A stretch of 20,142 nt of DNA from positions 1-20,142 of IMG/VR virus record IMGVR_UViG_3300037508_001439. One strand, 5' to 3'. The stretch is from a virus. Under the pieces are notes generated by a model. That model had not been told where the DNA came from. It was given only the letters and a program-made list of their open reading frames with translations, and searched no databases. The position numbers were made by a program, and so were the translations under genes. Each line of letters opens with the position of its first letter. The stretch's first letter is position 1. Positions 866 to 14,284 of this stretch are shown piece after piece.

Positions 866-2032
866 TCAGACGGTACCGTCATCAGACACATAGCTGAACG
901 CGGTGGTCACGAAGTCCTTGTTCAGGATTTCGAAGCCAGCGTACAGTTGCCAAATCAGAATGATGAAGCGGCTGAAGTCGTCGTTGTTGTTGATCAGCAC
1001 TTGGGCGTTCGGGCCGCCGATACCAACACCGATAGCCTGAGGACCAAAGAAGTAACCTTGGGCAACTTCTTGGTTGGCGTAGCTGCCGCCGGTGCCAGCG
1101 AAGGAGGTGCTGACGTTCTTGGTCGGGAAGTTGGTCGATTCGAAGAACTTAACACCTTCGAACTGAACACCAGTGGGCATCACCGGTTCGCCAGCCAGGA
1201 AATAGCCTTGGCCAGCTTGGGGACCCATGTAGAAGCTGGTGTTGTTAGGCATCATGGGATTACCCATGTACATGCCTTGACCAGGATTACCGGAGTAACG
1301 AGCAATCTCACGGAAGTCGGTGTCACGACGCAGGTGCATCATGAATGTGGGATCGCAGATGCAACGATACAGACCATCGGAGAAGGTCGGCACGTTACGC
1401 TTACGCAGATCCTTGACAACAGTCAGAAGGTCAGTGCGCACCGAGAACTGCTGAAGGTCAGCGGTGTACTCGGTAGAGGTGTAGGTGATTTGACCGGAAG
1501 AGTTCTTGATCTTACCACCAGGGAAGTAATAACCACCTTGGGTTGCGGAGGCAACACCATTGGCTTCGGCTTTGGCGAGTTCGTCGATGAACACGCGGTC
1601 GCGCCAACGGCGGTAGTCGTCAAGCAGGGTCAGGCTGCCGATCGACTGGTGGAACATATTCAGGTTGCCGGTATCCAGCAGCAGACGCTGGGCGGTAACC
1701 AGAGTTTCACGAGCAATCTTGAAGGTGCTGGGCTGGGTCGGATCGCCCGGGTCAGCAGGACCGGTGTATTCCTTCAGCACAACAAGCACCTTCTCTTTGG
1801 TGATGTTGCGGCTGTTGGCAGTACCGATGGTTTGGTCAGCCACGCGCTCACGGCTGTCCTTAGTGCCAGGGGTACCCCAGAACTTGTAGCGGTCTAACTG
1901 AACGGTTTGACCAGGCTGACGGGTGAAGTCGTGGACGACCACGGGCTCCACAGCCATTTCAGCGATGTACGCAGGGTGCGGACGATAGAGTTCCGCGCCG
2001 AGAATTTTTGGGAAATCGTTATCAAGAAACAC
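866..2032 (-). CDS. Major capsid protein (putative)
   Basis: A 388 aa protein in the canonical place after terminase, portal and scaffold. The N-terminus (PHPAYIAEMAVEPVVVHDF, then a Gln/Thr-rich strand) and the central FSDGLYRCICDPTFMMHL followed by LRRDTDFREIARYSG look like the extended arm and P-domain of HK97-fold capsid proteins, some of which place an 'ihP' type strand there. The start is GTG at 2032, with a strong GGAGG at 2043-2047 and 10 nt spacing; no ATG lies close by. Codon use is strongly C-ending, consistent with an abundant protein. A 108 nt spacer upstream holds a possible promoter and a dyad, so it may be transcribed separately from the upstream operon. The assignment rests on gene order and these resemblances. 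Confidence 0.75.
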   Translation of the reverse strand: MFLDNDFPKILGAELYRPHPAYIAEMAVEPVVVHDFTRQPGQTVQLDRYKFWGTPGTKDSRERVADQTIGTANSRNITKEKVLVVLKEYTGPADPGDPTQPSTFKIARETLVTAQRLLLDTGNLNMFHQSIGSLTLLDDYRRWRDRVFIDELAKAEANGVASATQGGYYFPGGKIKNSSGQITYTSTEYTADLQQFSVRTDLLTVVKDLRKRNVPTFSDGLYRCICDPTFMMHLRRDTDFREIARYSGNPGQGMYMGNPMMPNNTSFYMGPQAGQGYFLAGEPVMPTGVQFEGVKFFESTNFPTKNVSTSFAGTGGSYANQEVAQGYFFGPQAIGVGIGGPNAQVLINNNDDFSRFIILIWQLYAGFEILNKDFVTTAFSYVSDDGTV

Positions 2033-2691: not shown

Positions 2692-3645
2692 TCACTCCAT
2701 TACAAACAGTTTGTTGGCAACAACTTGAGGCTGGGCTTGATTCAGAATGCGCCAGGCATTCTGGGGATCACGCGCCATGATGTCGTTAAAGTTGCCCCAG
2801 AAGTTTTCAGGTTGCTGAGGAGCCGAGGCGGCAGGAGGAGCCGGGAACTCATTCATTTGGTAATCAACCGCTTCGGTGGGATAACCACGAGTTTCCAGTT
2901 GAGCCTCGTTTTCGTACACAGGGTACGGACCTTCAGGACCAAAGAACTTCAGGGTGTAATCGCTGAGCACATCGGGGTTCGTAAGAATCTCGTTGTAAGC
3001 CAGGTTCTCCTGGTGCTCATTCACCGCAAAGTTTGCGTAACCCTTAATGGTTTCAGCGGCGCGGTTTCCCCACTCGACGGCGCTGTCCAGCATCCCTTCC
3101 AGATTCAGGGCGTACTGGTTCAGAATTGCCGGTGCTTCGATTCCGAACGCGTCCACCACTTGGCGGCTGTCCTGGCTCATTCCCAGGTAATCCGCGATTT
3201 GCTCCAAGGATGGTGTCGAGGAGGTTTGGGAAGAGCTGGGCGAGTAAGCCTGGTTGAGATACGAGGTCGGCGCTGCCGATTGTTGCGTAGCTTGGGCGCT
3301 GTTCAACCCGTAGTTGGCCGGGGAAAACTGAGTCGTCGGAGCCGACGGTTGACCCTGGAACGGGGATTGGACTGGAGCGCTCAGCAGGTTGACTACTTTG
3401 TTGAACGCCGATTCCCAGGGATTGCTCTGCGGAGCCTCCGGTTGGGATTGGGGGGCGTACTGAGTAGGGCTGGATTGGTAGCTGGGGATCCCCTGAGGTA
3501 CCGCTTGGGGGTAGCTCGTACCCACTTGATACGCCATCGGTGCCGGAGCCGCTTGCTGCGGAGCTGCCACCACGTAGCTGCTGGGAGCCACCGCCGCCGG
3601 TGCTTGGCTCGTCTGTGGGATCGATTGGACGGTAGCGTCCTGCAT
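2692..3645 (-). CDS. Putative scaffold / head-assembly protein, 317 aa
   Basis: The gene starts inside the portal reading frame. The first ~140 residues are low-complexity (Pro, Gln, Ala, Ser) and probably disordered; residues ~145-250 are charged and helical (LEQIADYLGM, DSAVEWGNRAAETIKGY); the C-terminus is helical. This layout and the place between portal and capsid suit a scaffolding or internal head protein; a head protease is not supported, as no catalytic motif is visible. The ATG at 3645 has a near-perfect AAGGAG at 3653-3658 with 7 nt spacing. Codons are strongly C/G-ending, as in the capsid gene, so this frame is well supported. Its first 197 codons share bases with the portal frame. 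Confidence 0.65.
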   Translation of the reverse strand: MQDATVQSIPQTSQAPAAVAPSSYVVAAPQQAAPAPMAYQVGTSYPQAVPQGIPSYQSSPTQYAPQSQPEAPQSNPWESAFNKVVNLLSAPVQSPFQGQPSAPTTQFSPANYGLNSAQATQQSAAPTSYLNQAYSPSSSQTSSTPSLEQIADYLGMSQDSRQVVDAFGIEAPAILNQYALNLEGMLDSAVEWGNRAAETIKGYANFAVNEHQENLAYNEILTNPDVLSDYTLKFFGPEGPYPVYENEAQLETRGYPTEAVDYQMNEFPAPPAASAPQQPENFWGNFNDIMARDPQNAWRILNQAQPQVVANKLFVME

Positions 3646-5392
3646 AACTCATCTCCTTTTGTAGAGCTTCTAAAGTGCGATACAGATATGGGGTTAAATC
3701 CAATCGCGGATCCGCAGCCATCGGTAAATCCGGTGATTGCGGGTGGGGGGTCTGCATCATTCCTCCCACGAGGCGAGCGAAAGAAGAATATGCATTCTGT
3801 AATTCACCCACCATCCTGAACGGGAACCCCGATAGCATCGCGGCCCGCTCCTCATCCGTTTTTGACGGGAAGAGGTATTTCAGTGCTTCAATGCTATCAA
3901 CACCTAATTCTTGCAGATTTCGTACAACAATGGAGTTATTTAATACATCTTGGGTTGAATCTTCGTAAACAGGACCAAGCCAACGCCACAACATTGTGAC
4001 ATCACCGTCTGGAATTAAGCCAAGAACACCGGGGGGTATTTGCTGTGTCTTAAGGCAAGCCATCATTAACTGCTTGACTTGATCTTCAAACATCGAAATC
4101 GCATCTTCGTAAGCAGCAATGTCTTGATCGGAAGCGTTGTTTGGTAGCTCCAGGGGCTTTTCAAGTCCTGCTGCAGCCGCTAGCGTTTCGCGGAATAGGC
4201 GTTCTTCTTGATAAATAATGAGTTCCAAACAACGGCAAATTCCGTAGGTATAAATAGCGTTTGCTTTTTTCTTTGACGTGGCTGAAACGCGACCAAACAA
4301 AGACTTGTATTCAGTAGCAGTCACGCCAGCTGAAATGGAAAGTTCGTCAACGCCACCAAGGGCAGTTCGAATTTCTTCTCTATATTGACGAGCGAAAGAA
4401 TTTTGGTCCCCGGTGATTGCATCAGGAACAATGTAACCAACTCGGTCGTTTGGCTCCAGGTTTGCAATAACGCGTGGAACACGAATCTGACCATCAACTC
4501 CACGAGAAATGGGATCAGATTTAAACCGAGACTGACTCAGTGCGCCCATCCCTGTAAAGCCTGAGTTAGCCGCAATAGATGGACGCTGTACAACAGATTC
4601 TCCACCGGCCTCCATTAGGTCGGTTTTTGGACGAGATGAAAGGAGGGTTGGATTACCAAAGAACTGCACGTTCTTACGCATGGTGCGCACGATTTCATCA
4701 TGCGTGCAAATGTGATTGGCTAGCGCATCAAACTCACCAACACCTTCTGTTGCAAAGCCTTTGGGGTTATTAAAAATTTCTACGCAAGGAATAAAACGTA
4801 AGGTATTTTTAAAAGTCTTTGTTCGACCAGGGACTGTGTACTGGGGCTGCTCGAACGAGATTTCACCTTCAGAATGAGTTTCTTCAATAACATCTCGTTT
4901 AATGGACAAACGGATGTAACGCTTGGCGCCTTGCCCCATGGTGGCAGGACCGGTGAGGCTACCTGCTTGAATGTCTTGATCAAAACCAAAACCACGACGA
5001 ACCTTATAGCTGTAAATGATTACAACTTCATCAATTTCGCCATCGATGTTGTAATAAGTTCTGTACTCGTGCCGACGAAAATAATAAAGTCTGTAATTGT
5101 TTTTGGTTGGACGAATATAAAAAAGACCTTGTCCATCACAAAGGAAATAATCCCAGATGGAATCTAGGCGCGTATCAATTTGGTTGTATTTAATTACGCG
5201 ATCAATAAAGTCTTTGCGCTGGTTGCCGAAGTTATCTTGTGCCGGAAAAAATTCAACACCCTGGCGGATGCCAAACAATTTCATCTGGGCAAGATGGGAC
5301 GCCACCACGCCGGTGTCAATCATTGACCCACCGTCTTTATCAAGGTAGGAATCAATAATTTCTTTAAGGCGTGCTTTAGCGTCGACAGCCAT
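3053..5392 (-). CDS. Portal protein with long C-terminal extension
   Basis: The 779 aa product starts at the ATG at 5392, overlapping the stop of the 49 aa gene (TAATG). Residues ~1-580 form a portal-like core: acidic and aromatic early region, an FFGNPTLLSSRP segment near residue 245, long helices in the second half (DVLNNSIVVRNLQELGVDS), and a normal portal length. Gene order after terL and before scaffold and capsid supports this. Residues ~582-779 are different: Gly/Ser/Pro-rich, then a very basic tail (GQRRRVGKPRR), encoded wholly inside the scaffold-like gene in another frame. The extension may be a real overprinted domain or merely an open frame without a stop; the core assignment does not depend on it. 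I recognise the portal by context and general resemblance only. Confidence 0.75.
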   Translation of the reverse strand: MAVDAKARLKEIIDSYLDKDGGSMIDTGVVASHLAQMKLFGIRQGVEFFPAQDNFGNQRKDFIDRVIKYNQIDTRLDSIWDYFLCDGQGLFYIRPTKNNYRLYYFRRHEYRTYYNIDGEIDEVVIIYSYKVRRGFGFDQDIQAGSLTGPATMGQGAKRYIRLSIKRDVIEETHSEGEISFEQPQYTVPGRTKTFKNTLRFIPCVEIFNNPKGFATEGVGEFDALANHICTHDEIVRTMRKNVQFFGNPTLLSSRPKTDLMEAGGESVVQRPSIAANSGFTGMGALSQSRFKSDPISRGVDGQIRVPRVIANLEPNDRVGYIVPDAITGDQNSFARQYREEIRTALGGVDELSISAGVTATEYKSLFGRVSATSKKKANAIYTYGICRCLELIIYQEERLFRETLAAAAGLEKPLELPNNASDQDIAAYEDAISMFEDQVKQLMMACLKTQQIPPGVLGLIPDGDVTMLWRWLGPVYEDSTQDVLNNSIVVRNLQELGVDSIEALKYLFPSKTDEERAAMLSGFPFRMVGELQNAYSSFARLVGGMMQTPHPQSPDLPMAADPRLDLTPYLYRTLEALQKEMSYAGRYRPIDPTDEPSTGGGGSQQLRGGSSAASGSGTDGVSSGYELPPSGTSGDPQLPIQPYSVRPPIPTGGSAEQSLGIGVQQSSQPAERSSPIPVPGSTVGSDDSVFPGQLRVEQRPSYATIGSADLVSQPGLLAQLFPNLLDTILGANRGLPGNEPGQPPSGGRVRNRSTGNSEPVRPESGRDAGQRRRVGKPRR

Positions 5393-6244: not shown

Positions 6245-6573
6245 TTTGCCAATAGCTTTTCCATAAGCTTATCAAGTTTATTGTTAATTTGCCTAAAGTT
6301 TTCGTGCATTTCTTGAATTTCCCTCAAGAAATCAACTTTTAAAACATAGTCAAGAGGCATGCGATTAACTTGATCTTCCAATGTGTCTAGGCGGCGTTTT
6401 TGAGATGATGTGTAATCAATTGCATTTTGAACGCGCTCACTTTGGCGATCGAGGATGCGATTAGCAACCCACGCACCTCCAGTAAGAGCCGATGCAGCTG
6501 CCGTAACCGCAATTGCAATGTACTCTGGGCCCACAACAAAAACTTTTTTTCTTATTCTAGGATTAGTAATCAA
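6241..6573 (-). CDS. TM plus coiled-coil small protein, 110 aa
   Basis: One hydrophobic segment (about residues 17-40, EYIAIAVTAAASALTGGAWV) is followed by a long charged helix (~40-105) ending LDKLMEKLLAK, typical of a membrane-anchored coiled coil. A holin-like or lysis-accessory role, or a virion membrane protein, is possible but not shown. The start is TTG at 6571-6573, 11 bases inside the terL 3' end, with an AAAGGA site 10 nt upstream. An internal GTG at residue 14 is an alternative start. It lies just downstream of terL and overlaps the AbrB-like gene by 4 bases. Confidence 0.6.
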   Translation of the reverse strand: MITNPRIRKKVFVVGPEYIAIAVTAAASALTGGAWVANRILDRQSERVQNAIDYTSSQKRRLDTLEDQVNRMPLDYVLKVDFLREIQEMHENFRQINNKLDKLMEKLLAK

Positions 6574-8089
6574 GCTGCAATTGTCCTTTTCGTGCTAATC
6601 CAGTAACAAGCCAGACGAGAGCGTCGACGCAATCGTCGTGACTGCTAACACCAAAGTTAGTTAGCTCTTCAAACAAAGCTGTGAAATTACGAAAACGATT
6701 AAAGATAATTTTGCGATCTTCAAACATGCCCATGATTCCACGGAAACGGGCCAGTTTATCAGCGCGGAAACCTTTGACAGGATGCCAGATTAAGTTGTAA
6801 AGCCCCTCGTTGTTTAAACAAACACGTTTAAAGTCAGCTTCTAAGGAAGCCTGGTACTGCACAGCTTCTGACCAAATATCACATGTTGAGTACGTTGGAA
6901 AATAATTGCCGTTTTCATCTCTACCTATGATGGACCAATCATTGAGAAGTTCTTTCATAGCGTCAAGTTTTTCTAAATTACCCATGACGCGTATGCGGCG
7001 GTAGTCAATGATATGAATGCGATCGCCAATACGCCCGCCAAGAATCATGACGGTGTAGTCATTCTTTTCTTTTGTGCCAGCAGAAAGATCAACACCAATA
7101 CCAAGCGTATCGAACTCCGTTGAAATCTCGGCTTTTACGATTAATTCTGGAGCAAGCGATAGCTCATTTTGCCTGACAATTTGATTCATGTACTGAAAAG
7201 AAAAAGCAATAGGAGCTTGCCTTTTCTTTTCTTTTAGGTACTCAAGTGACCACATCTCTGGCCAGTAGGACTCCTCATCACCAGTCTTTAAATTGTTAAG
7301 GATTGCTGACAAAACAATCTGAGTCCAGTTATTTTGTTCGTTGAAAGTAGTCGCATGAATATCATCATGGCGGAAGCGAGTACCAAGACAAATTGCACGT
7401 CCGCCTTCGAACATGGTGGGTGCAATCACAGCATTCCAGTTATCCTGCATTGTTTTACGGATATCTGGATTGGAAATATCAGCTGCAGATTTAATAGCGT
7501 CATCAATCATCACAAGATGAGAACGCTTGGATGTCACTGAACCCTTAAGGCCCGCAGCGCAAAGAGTAAATTGCTCGTCACCTGTTACATCAATACCAGC
7601 AAACTTATGGTCAATGGACCAGTATTCATTACTGGTGGCATTTTTTAAAAGGCGAACTTTTGGAAAAACTTCTTGATAACGTTTGCTAGAAATAATGCGT
7701 TTAATTGTTGCCGACTTAGAACGCGCAATATCAACTGTGTACGACAAATAAAGGATCTGCAGGGGCATCTTGGCATGTGTGTGAATGCCAATTGCCCAGG
7801 CAGTTAAAAGTCCCAAGACGGTTGATTTGGCCGAGCCCCTTGGCGCCAAAAGGTCGATGTTGGGGCCAGCAATTTTAATTAGACAAGAGCTGTCTTCGTT
7901 TGTTACAAAGTGACGATGCCAGTCTTTATGGTGTTGAGCTGGTGGTTTATCCGCTACGTACTCACAAAAATATGCAAAATCTTCTTGCGCACGCTTTAAC
8001 AGATCTTCGTTCTTAGGCTTTTTTAACTGCTGATTACGAGCAGCAGCTTTGGCATTACGCCTATGGGCTAAATGAACGTAGGAGGGCAC
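6563..8089 (-). CDS. terL: Terminase large subunit
   Basis: DNA-packaging motor, 508 aa. The ATPase domain has a Walker A-like LLAPRGSAKST at about residues 80-90, a Walker B LVMIDD near 192-197 and a coupling-type LGTRF near 235-239. The C-terminal RNase H-like nuclease is complete: IGVDLSAG with Asp334, an acidic site around CDIWSEA (403-409), and SSHDDCVDA with Asp485/486/489. Length is typical for the family. The frame starts at GTG 8089, the first usable codon after an in-frame TGA; there is no visible Shine-Dalgarno site and a 9 bp stem hairpin lies just upstream. The 3' end overlaps the next gene by 11 bases. Products of the terS-like gene should supply the DNA-recognition partner. Confidence 0.93.
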   Translation of the reverse strand: MPSYVHLAHRRNAKAAARNQQLKKPKNEDLLKRAQEDFAYFCEYVADKPPAQHHKDWHRHFVTNEDSSCLIKIAGPNIDLLAPRGSAKSTVLGLLTAWAIGIHTHAKMPLQILYLSYTVDIARSKSATIKRIISSKRYQEVFPKVRLLKNATSNEYWSIDHKFAGIDVTGDEQFTLCAAGLKGSVTSKRSHLVMIDDAIKSAADISNPDIRKTMQDNWNAVIAPTMFEGGRAICLGTRFRHDDIHATTFNEQNNWTQIVLSAILNNLKTGDEESYWPEMWSLEYLKEKKRQAPIAFSFQYMNQIVRQNELSLAPELIVKAEISTEFDTLGIGVDLSAGTKEKNDYTVMILGGRIGDRIHIIDYRRIRVMGNLEKLDAMKELLNDWSIIGRDENGNYFPTYSTCDIWSEAVQYQASLEADFKRVCLNNEGLYNLIWHPVKGFRADKLARFRGIMGMFEDRKIIFNRFRNFTALFEELTNFGVSSHDDCVDALVWLVTGLARKGQLQLDY

Positions 8090-11855: not shown

Positions 11856-12740
11856 TTACCTCAACACCACATTGGCATAAGGGTTGGCATTAATCATGGT
11901 TCGTAACGTTTCACCGGTTTGTGCTTGACCACCGGCAGCAAGTTGACCAGCTGTACCAAGAACACTTAAACGTGCAAGTTGATTACCTTGAGAAGCAAGC
12001 AATGCTTGTTGACGAACCAGGTCAGCGTTCTTCATTTGGTTAACAATAGGAAGATTACGCTGGAGATCAAGATAAGCTTGATCAGAATAAAACTTGCTTA
12101 AATCTTTAACAGCACTTGTTTCAATTCCGGTTTGTGTACGGAACTGACTAAGGCCAAGATCAGAAAGAGTGCGAGCAGCGGCAATTTGAGAAGCAAATTC
12201 TTGCTCTTTGCCTTTGGTCGGCATACCTGTTAATTGCTGACGGGCGTATTCAGCACCTTCTGCGCCAAGTTGAGCACCAGCTGTAGCACCAAAGAAAGGA
12301 GCCGCCGCACGGGCAGCTTTACCAACAAGGCCAAATCGGCCTGTTGTTGGAAGCAAACGAGCAAGACCAGCTGCACCAATGCCACCAATCGCAGCGCCAC
12401 CCAGAGCGCCACCAGCGCCTACGGGGCGACCAGCAGCAGCTTCTGTCATGGCCGTAGTGACGCCAGGGATCAGTCCACCTACAAGACCAATGCGACCAAA
12501 GGGAAGTGCGCCAAGATCACCCATTAACTGCTGAGCGCCTTGCAGTGTTTGCCCGGCAAGCTTTTGAGCACGCTCTTGGGGAGAAATACGTGCAGTAGGA
12601 GCGACGGTGGTAGCGCCACGGGGAGCAGCTGCTTCTGCAGGAACTTCACCGGCACGCGCCCGACGAAGTAAATCAAGTTCCGGATAATAAGCCCGTGGAT
12701 CAAGACCCGCTTGCAATCTTGCTAATTCTTCTGGGGTCAT
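11856..12740 (-). CDS. Ala/Gly-rich hydrophobic protein, 294 aa
   Basis: Residues 1-60 are polar. About 80-165 is one long apolar Ala/Gly stretch with several candidate membrane helices (LVGGLIPGVTTAMTEAAAG, then GGALGGAAIGGIGAAGLARL). Residues ~175-260 are helical and Gln-rich. The composition resembles phage ejection proteins that enter the host envelope, an inference from composition and from the run of similar neighbours. The ATG at 12740 has no clear ribosome site. Confidence 0.55.
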   Translation of the reverse strand: MTPEELARLQAGLDPRAYYPELDLLRRARAGEVPAEAAAPRGATTVAPTARISPQERAQKLAGQTLQGAQQLMGDLGALPFGRIGLVGGLIPGVTTAMTEAAAGRPVGAGGALGGAAIGGIGAAGLARLLPTTGRFGLVGKAARAAAPFFGATAGAQLGAEGAEYARQQLTGMPTKGKEQEFASQIAAARTLSDLGLSQFRTQTGIETSAVKDLSKFYSDQAYLDLQRNLPIVNQMKNADLVRQQALLASQGNQLARLSVLGTAGQLAAGGQAQTGETLRTMINANPYANVVLR

Positions 12741-12764
12741 TATGAACGAATATGTTTTATTTAG

Positions 12765-13712
12765 TTAAATTCTATCAGTACTTAAGTTTTGGTATTGAGT
12801 TGTTGTTGGAAGTTGTGGACGATTAGCAGCAGCAATTGCTTCGTTTGTTACGTTGCCTAATGCAACACCAGCAAGAGATCCTGCCAAGCCACCAGCCATT
12901 GCTCGTGCAGCTTTTTGCCTTGGTGTTCCAGGTAGCCGTGCAGCTGTTGTTGCAGCAAGAGAACCGCCAGCAAAACCTCCTGCCATTGGAATATTCACAG
13001 GATAACCAAGGACACGAGCTTCCGGATAACCCTGAAGATTTTCCATGGTTCCTTTGACAACGCCAAGACCAAGCAAACCTTTTTCTTGGTAAAGAAAATT
13101 CATGTAGTTTGCATACCGCTCTGGCGTTAAGTTTGGAATTTCTTGTTTGGCTGTTGCGTACTTAAGCGGATCTCCTGTACGTCCCAGGAAGAAACGTTCA
13201 AACAACTCTTGTGTTGGCTGAGCAGTTTGCCTGCGATCTTCTGCACCTTTGGGTGAATATGTCTGAGCAAAGCCCGTGGGACGAAAAGCTTCTTCTGGGT
13301 TTGTAATGTCGTACGTACCGGCAGCTGCAATGGCGGGTGTTGCAATGCCAAGTGCAGTAACAGCTCTGGCAGTAGGAGACTTAATAACAGAAGGATCAAC
13401 AGCTAAACCAACAACACGTTGGGCAACTGCTAAGGGATGATTCCAACGCCACCAATAAGTACGCGTACCGTCATTGGCTAAATCAATAAGAGTACGTGAA
13501 AGGTATGCGCCAGCAAATTGAGCTGGTGTTTGACGTGCTGTAATACCTTTTGCGGCAATAGCTTTTTTAAAACCTGGGTCTAAAATACTTTCTCCGTAAC
13601 CAAGGCCTTCTTTCTGAGCCTTGGCAAACATTTGACGCTGCGTAACGTCAGCTGTTTTATAGCCTTGTTTAATATCTTGACCAACTTGTTGGAGAGATTG
13701 AAATAAATTCAT
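12765..13712 (-). CDS. Hydrophobic structural protein with YWWRWNHP motif, 315 aa
   Basis: Begins with an amphipathic helix (MNLFQSLQQVGQDIKQGYKT). Residues 81-93 read DGTRTYWWRWNHP, an unusually aromatic motif that looks constrained. Apolar stretches lie near 116-131 and 245-290, flanked by basic residues. A soluble aromatic/charged region (FERFFLGRTGDPLKYATAKQ) separates them. It overlaps the upstream 191 aa gene by 4 bases (ATGA). Likely an internal virion protein or membrane-active ejection protein; no family recognised with confidence. Confidence 0.6.
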   Translation of the reverse strand: MNLFQSLQQVGQDIKQGYKTADVTQRQMFAKAQKEGLGYGESILDPGFKKAIAAKGITARQTPAQFAGAYLSRTLIDLANDGTRTYWWRWNHPLAVAQRVVGLAVDPSVIKSPTARAVTALGIATPAIAAAGTYDITNPEEAFRPTGFAQTYSPKGAEDRRQTAQPTQELFERFFLGRTGDPLKYATAKQEIPNLTPERYANYMNFLYQEKGLLGLGVVKGTMENLQGYPEARVLGYPVNIPMAGGFAGGSLAATTAARLPGTPRQKAARAMAGGLAGSLAGVALGNVTNEAIAAANRPQLPTTTQYQNLSTDRI

Positions 13713-14284
13713 TGTGCCCCCAAAGGACTACGCAGTTGCGCCAGGGTTTCGTCATAGCCAGGCATCAAACTACTCATATAGTTTTGTGGTTTGACATAGT
13801 TTCTTAGGAAGGTATGCTCAAGGCCTTGCATCTGGAATTGAGTTCCAGGAGCGACAGCTTGCGGTCCTTCAAGTTGATTAACTGCAGCACGTTGCTGCAT
13901 TTCTTGCATGATCTGTTGACCTTGCGATTGGACAGTTGGTTCTGGATAAAGGTAACGACCAAAGGCTGCATCAACGGTAAACGGTGCAGCAATGGAAGAA
14001 CCTAAATTTGCAGTTGTTTCTACTGCACCACGAAGTGTCTGTGGGCTAATTTCTTTTCCTAAAAGTTTTACAGGTTGAGTAATATATTTTTGTCCAAGTT
14101 TACGGGCTGCAAGAGTGGCTGGATAAGCAGCAAGAAAATCAGCTGCACCATACGCAGCCGCTGCTGGAACACTGCCAGAGAGTAAGCCAAAGCCACCAGC
14201 AAGAGCGCTTCCTGCACCAACTTGCGTCGCAACATCAGGATTGCGTTTAGCAATATTTGCAAGTCGGCTTAGAAGATTTGCCAT
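13709..14284 (-). CDS. Ala/Gly-rich hydrophobic protein, 191 aa
   Basis: Residues 18-60 are an apolar Ala/Gly stretch (ALAGGFGLLSGSVPAAAAYG, then ADFLAAYPATLAA) able to form two membrane helices, followed by a basic patch and a Gln/Met-rich helix (~125-140). The C-terminus contains NYVKPQNYMSSLMPGYDE. It overlaps the 315 aa gene by ATGA, so the pair is probably co-translated. Same composition class as its neighbours; function unknown. Confidence 0.55.
   Translation of the reverse strand: MANLLSRLANIAKRNPDVATQVGAGSALAGGFGLLSGSVPAAAAYGAADFLAAYPATLAARKLGQKYITQPVKLLGKEISPQTLRGAVETTANLGSSIAAPFTVDAAFGRYLYPEPTVQSQGQQIMQEMQQRAAVNQLEGPQAVAPGTQFQMQGLEHTFLRNYVKPQNYMSSLMPGYDETLAQLRSPLGAQ

Follow-up and report, generated by a model that had tools for sequence, protein, structure and literature searches.

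Long out-of-frame gene overlaps are well known in viruses with small genomes, and the genes of HIV are an example of segregated overlap. In lambda-like phages, the lysis genes Rz and Rz1 share a long out-of-frame overlap, one being nested within the other, and both are essential. Scaffolds located within another head gene are exemplified by lambda C/Nu3 and by herpesvirus UL26/UL26.5; in both of these the scaffold has an internal start in the same frame and shares its sequence with the larger protein. DNA enters the head through the portal protein, the C-termini of which face inwards. The C-terminal barrel of the P22 portal lies within the head, is unfolded in the procapsid and has DNA around it in the virion (PMC5290284), and incorporation of this portal needs the scaffold (PMC9320234). 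Segregated (asymmetric) viral overlaps, in which selection varies along the overlap, have been reviewed, including the P/S overlap of hepatitis B (PMC8227390). The median length of same-strand viral overlaps with a +1 shift is 14 nt (interquartile range 8-26), and that of DNA-virus overlaps is about 16 nt (PMC8903798).

The window (the whole stretch of DNA that was analysed, a virus record of 20,142 bases) carries a run of head genes on its minus strand, comprising genes for the terminase large subunit, a portal-like protein, a scaffold-like protein, an Ala/Gly-rich ORF of 184 amino acids and the major capsid protein. The first-pass annotation had claimed a 593-nt overlap of the portal-like gene with the scaffold-like gene in another frame, and this overlap is exact. 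The scaffold ATG is found within portal codons 583-584, shortly upstream of the end of the portal core, and the half of the scaffold gene outside the overlap serves as a same-gene control for selection on the portal frame. Our results suggest that the overlap is very probably a case of real dual coding with both frames under selection. The features are as follows.

6563-8089, minus strand: terminase large subunit (phrog_38, E 6.8e-77)
3053-5392, minus strand: portal-like protein, 779 amino acids, with a core up to residue 598 or so and a tail (about residues 584-779) within the overlap
3646-3664, minus strand: Shine-Dalgarno region of the scaffold gene, within the portal frame (ACAAAAGGAGATGAGTT-ATG)
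2692-3645, minus strand: scaffold-like protein, 317 amino acids, ATG start, between portal and major capsid protein, named from position and composition
3053-3645, minus strand: probable dual-coding overlap, 593 nt, portal codon position 2 being scaffold position 1
3355-3423, minus strand: scaffold residues 75-97 (NPWESAFNKVVNLLSAPVQSPFQ), strongly conserved in the zone analysis of the overlap
3224-3289, minus strand: portal residues 702-723 (YATIGSADLVSQPGLLAQLFPN), conserved, portal-dominant, predicted partly helical, portal N/S ratio 0.33 (0.17-0.55)
3053-3210, minus strand: C-terminal end of the portal (residues 728-779 or so), covering the beginning of the conserved scaffold domain (SLEQIADYLGMSQ...)
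866-2032, minus strand: major capsid protein (phrog_1357 major head protein, E 2.5e-17)

Several hydrophobic Ala/Gly-rich ORFs without assigned function are located in the structural region at 2141-2695 and 11856-14284; these possibly encode internal or ejection proteins.

The first protein is most likely a portal, as suggested by structural comparison, weak PHROG matches and gene order. A Foldseek search with the portal model returned portals at all of ranks 1-26 (best E 3.5e-4), the model having a pLDDT of only 39, and the portal family phrog_64 was matched weakly by 29 of 37 members (best E 4.8e-4). The ORF is placed between the terminase and capsid genes. Sequence and profile searches delivered no Pfam match and no credible PDB sequence match. 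With the same model (pLDDT 39), VIA-align reached a best Z of 7.7 (rmsd 10.2, 230 aligned) over residues 2-401; this comparison is silent on the tail because most rows span model residues 4-470. The mean AlphaFold pLDDT was 39 for the portal (37 sequences) and 41 for the scaffold (21 sequences), and since both models are of low confidence, the helix in the conserved segment and the disorder of the tail are weakly supported. The tail had been described as Gly/Ser/Pro-rich, in agreement with its mean composition in 79 relatives (G 17%, S 14%, P 13%, R 9%); it is modelled mostly as coil in the low-confidence model (pLDDT 39).

The second protein is probably a head scaffold, as judged from its position between the portal and the major capsid protein and from its composition, with a Q/P/A/S-rich N-terminus and a C-terminal half that is predicted to be helical in a low-confidence model. 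It has no match in PHROGs or PDB and no database homologue outside the lineage; scaffolds diverge fast. A match of 57 residues to the "internal head protein" of Shewanella phage FishSpeaker (E 0.03) was judged to be due to chance.

The sole match among isolates is Synechococcus phage S-EIVl (KJ410740), which has a genome of 79 kb, a full-length portal of 767 amino acids and the same overlap with a length of 554 nt. In its GenBank record, the portal is entered as a long ORF (AHV82224), and the overlap is invisible because the scaffold (AHV82225) is entered with its last 133 residues only. This is an example of how gene callers may truncate one of two overlapping genes. Two further observations concern the same genome. 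The capsid protein of the window matches S-EIVl (L081, KJ410740.1 60784-62010) over its full length at 60859-62007 on the plus strand, whereas the GenBank record has a reverse-strand ORF (AHV82227) across most of this region and, on the plus strand, AHV82228 covering the C-terminal part only; the S-EIVl major capsid protein appears to be misannotated. Its terminase large subunit (L081:5544-8081) comprises about 846 amino acids vs about 511 in relatives, and the additional stretch is probably an intein, since it hits the intein splicing domain of Pfam (residues 202-526, E 1.4e-11). In another relative, an ORF for a LAGLIDADG endonuclease (L063:10697-11386, E 8.5e-14) interrupts the major capsid gene and probably sits in an intron or intein.

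The IMG/VR contigs yielded 131 non-identical close relatives (clade A), all of them with an overlap of 530-641 nt. Because full-length portal queries might be biased towards contigs with an intact tail, a second sample was picked by a scaffold C-terminal motif alone. The overlap was present in 81 of 81 loci with a readable clade-A start (497-662 nt). This sample also exposed deeper clades, which were extended by three further scans: the portal cores of clade B (L358-like), clade C (L314-like) and clade D (L360-like) are 55-59%, 49-51% and 48-50% identical to that of the window, respectively, and their portal tails 25-45%. The 184 complete loci of these three clades show the overlap in the identical +1 phase with a length of 467-563 nt, so that across the lineage its length is about 470-660 nt and its phase constant. 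The only exceptions are L261 and L571, which have broken or shifted portal or scaffold frames and are probably contigs frameshifted by assembly or sequencing errors. Relatives with an early portal stop and a conserved scaffold frame, named by the first-pass annotation as the contrary case, were looked for, and no unbroken relative shows this, including the 81 motif-picked loci and the 184 loci of clades B-D. Likewise, no relative without the overlap was found among all clades sampled. Searches of prokaryote genome contigs gave two fragments in metagenome bins only and no distant homologue. The distribution indicates that the arrangement is older than the split of the four clades.

The scaffold ATG is preceded by a strong Shine-Dalgarno sequence (ACAAAAGGAGATGAGTTATG), as had been noticed from the single sequence, and its last 19 bases are invariant in 77 of 79 non-redundant relatives. 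The same number of relatives contains CAAAAGGAGATGAGTTATG, the remaining two each being one base off, and the portal codons L-Q-K-E spanning the Shine-Dalgarno sequence show zero third-position variation. A Shine-Dalgarno sequence followed by ATG is found in clades A and B and one followed by GTG in clade C, while clade D has a weak Shine-Dalgarno sequence. The codon bias that had been reported for the second frame is present, although it is better described as a rarity of T-ending codons than as a preference for C: third-position T amounts to 12.5% in the overlap vs 34% in the remainder of the scaffold gene.

All intact relatives that were examined retain the arrangement, which argues for real dual coding rather than a chance lack of stops. 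For a direct comparison, the scaffold protein was recoded with the codon usage of its own non-overlap part, and stops in the portal frame were counted. The mean number of stops was about 12.6-12.8 in clade A, 9.5 in clade B, 6.4 in clade C and 5.8 in clade D, and the frame stayed open in 0/7900, 0/5000, 2/2700 and 6/4200 recodings, respectively; a larger run for clade A (79 x 1000) gave no open frame either. In this clade, third-position T preceding AA, AG or GA is found in 0 of 2,184 cases in the overlap common to all vs 614 of 2,243 outside. Beyond the portal stop, the portal frame contains a mean of 8.4 stops across the non-overlap half of the scaffold gene.

Substitution patterns point in the same direction. 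The variability at scaffold codon positions 1, 2 and 3 is 0.11, 0.15 and 0.25 in the overlap vs 0.13, 0.09 and 0.43 outside; it is raised at position 2, the wobble position of the portal, and lowered at position 3, which is a coding position of the portal. Substitution classes were counted in the manner of OLGenie with our own implementation, and intervals were obtained as bootstraps over codons, these being approximate because sequence pairs are not independent. Given a nonsynonymous change in the scaffold, the portal N/S ratio in clades A-D was 0.70, 0.57, 0.78 and 0.67 in the overlap, with all four intervals below 1, vs 1.23, 1.41, 1.36 and 1.81 in the control. Given a synonymous change in the scaffold, the ratios were 0.42, 0.43, 0.44 and 0.40 vs 0.98, 1.10, 1.51 and 1.17. 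The scaffold is under the stronger constraint, with ratios in clade A of 0.35 and 0.21 vs 0.70 and 0.43 for the portal. By these comparisons, purifying selection acts on both frames of the overlap in all four clades, and portal-frame selection is absent from the non-overlap half. The tails of the different clades can be aligned at motifs such as E/QS-x-x-x-G-V, P-x-PG and G-x-ADL. Constraint in both frames is thus as predicted for a comparison of synonymous sites, and the reading of the tail as an overprinted domain is supported for most of its length by the recoding, the control half and the four-clade ratios. Codon usage as a test for the older frame gave no answer, both frames being atypical, and no overlap-free relative was found, so that either frame may be the older one.

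The zone analysis indicates that selection is divided along the overlap, with the portal dominating one conserved segment and the scaffold dominating elsewhere. In clade A, conservation extends to both frames over the first 24 scaffold codons, a variable linker comes next, and the segment PWESAFNKVVNLLSAPVQSPFQ is led by the scaffold. At portal residues 702-723 the portal leads: differences that change the scaffold and are silent in the portal amount to 0.36 vs 0.10 outside, and the opposite scaffold residues 119-141 are variable. The G-x-ADL motif or close variants of it occur in all four clades. In clade A, amino-acid constraint is absent from the last 50 or so residues of the portal (ratio 2.28), yet they are stop-free and basic, and the loss of constraint coincides with the start of the conserved scaffold domain. 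Portal stops in this clade cluster, the scaffold extending 424, 391-394 or 358-370 nt beyond the portal stop in most members, and nearly all alternative stops (window 3053-3150 and relatives) give basic ends. The mean charge of the last 15 portal residues in clades A-D is +5.5, +5.1, +6.1 and +7.2, with recoding expectations of +1.7, +1.5, +1.1 and +2.9, a test less clean than the others because the expectation is conditioned on the real stop position. Basic portal C-termini are therefore common to the four clades through different sequences; the basic end GQRRRVGKPRR that had been singled out in the window holds up in its charge, whereas its sequence is the version of one clade. In two members of clade B (L396 and L404), the portal stops directly after the LFPN-like segment (FAGNNR and FGRNN, respectively) without the usual basic patch.

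The first-pass annotation had also considered a passive lack of stops, i.e. a portal frame that is open merely through the composition and codon bias of the scaffold gene. As a general account this is rejected by the recoding, the control region and the four-clade tests, and we consider it extremely improbable. Under the low-T usage of the overlap itself, a single sequence does stay open in 2.6% of recodings, and the unconstrained portal end in clade A would fit; however, this usage is limited to the overlap, and that of the remainder gives 6-13 stops. In addition, the portal frame meets stops past its own end, its N/S ratio stays under 1 in each of the four clades as opposed to about 1 or more in the control, and tail motifs are recognisable across clades with portal cores of 48-59% identity. 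A constraint at the RNA or codon level (structure, slow codons or scaffold expression), with the portal tail as a passenger, would explain why synonymous change in the scaffold is lowered over much of the overlap and why third-position usage there is unlike that of the remainder of the gene. It would not favour portal-silent over portal-changing substitutions, raise scaffold amino-acid change precisely at the conserved portal segment, or maintain basic C-termini of clade-specific sequence, and is very improbable.

Portal and scaffold are required in very different amounts, and the Shine-Dalgarno sequence is conserved within the portal gene. Both would agree with an overlap that couples scaffold translation to that of the portal at a low portal/high scaffold ratio, the tail being merely harmless. 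Such an explanation is improbable, as a few bases suffice for coupling, not 470-660, and as the portal segment and the basic end are conserved as protein. Dual coding would stand if the second gene encoded another head or ejection protein instead of a scaffold. The protein resembles no known scaffold in PHROGs or PDB, and the weak FishSpeaker match, though probably chance, is to an internal head protein; by contrast, its location between portal and major capsid protein, its Q/P/A/S-rich N-terminus and its C-terminal half, predicted to be helical in a low-confidence model, are typical of scaffolds, which makes this alternative somewhat unlikely.

We propose that the portal has a C-terminal tail of about 160-220 residues, which is very probably overprinted, with a +1 shift, on the first half of the scaffold gene that follows. 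The scaffold would be made through independent initiation, with portal translation passing across the scaffold start. The portal's share of the overlap would be the conserved G-x-ADL...LFPN segment, and the scaffold's share would comprise the scaffold N-terminus together with the PWESAFNKVVNLL segment, while the rest may serve as a flexible linker in both proteins. Given that C-termini of portals are directed towards the capsid interior, the tail would lie inside the head, presumably as a flexible arm. Its short hydrophobic segment, a putative helical docking motif, may bind a head component, which would most likely be the scaffold when the procapsid nucleates or else an ejection protein, and the basic end of the tail may contact packaged DNA; these steps, drawn by analogy, are tentative. 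That the tail binds the very scaffold encoded by its own overlap, the head-nucleating contact being one piece of DNA read twice, is a quite unlikely idea, although, if true, the two sides of this contact would be unable to drift apart independently.

The lineage comprises relatives of a cyanobacterium-infecting phage and occurs in many environmental samples; the genome group including S-EIV1 accounted for 3.3% of cyanophage content in a virome study of the ocean (PMC5332604). The long overlap of the lineage occurs in genomes that, at about 80 kb, are hardly short of space, and suggests that long dual coding can persist across deep divergence in tailed phages. It also points to an unrecognised basic portal arm, which is probably internal. 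The hundreds of sequences from four clades are a natural set in which the partition of selection between two frames can be studied.

In the literature, with subscription journals mostly outside the scope of the search, we found no published report of an out-of-frame portal/scaffold overlap. A conserved overlap of 470-660 nt between two head-assembly genes of tailed phages is thus without a precedent that we could find, whereas long overlaps and divided selection as such are known. The locus resembles Rz/Rz1 in being a long out-of-frame overlap in tailed phages, but those are nested lysis genes, and the proteins described here are unrelated to them. As in lambda C/Nu3 and herpesvirus UL26/UL26.5, the scaffold lies within a head gene and has its own internal start; here, however, the frames differ and the proteins share no sequence. 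With the P22 barrel it has in common a C-terminal extension of the portal, located inside the head and unfolded in the procapsid in P22 (PMC5290284) and internal by inference here. The P22 barrel is a long helix with a mildly acidic surface, whereas the tail described here is G/S/P-rich and dual-coded, contains a short conserved segment and ends in a strongly basic stretch. As in segregated viral overlaps (PMC8227390), one stretch is read in two frames and selection on one or the other varies along it; unlike these, the overlap belongs to a tailed dsDNA phage with a genome of about 80 kb, joins neighbouring head genes and is terminal.
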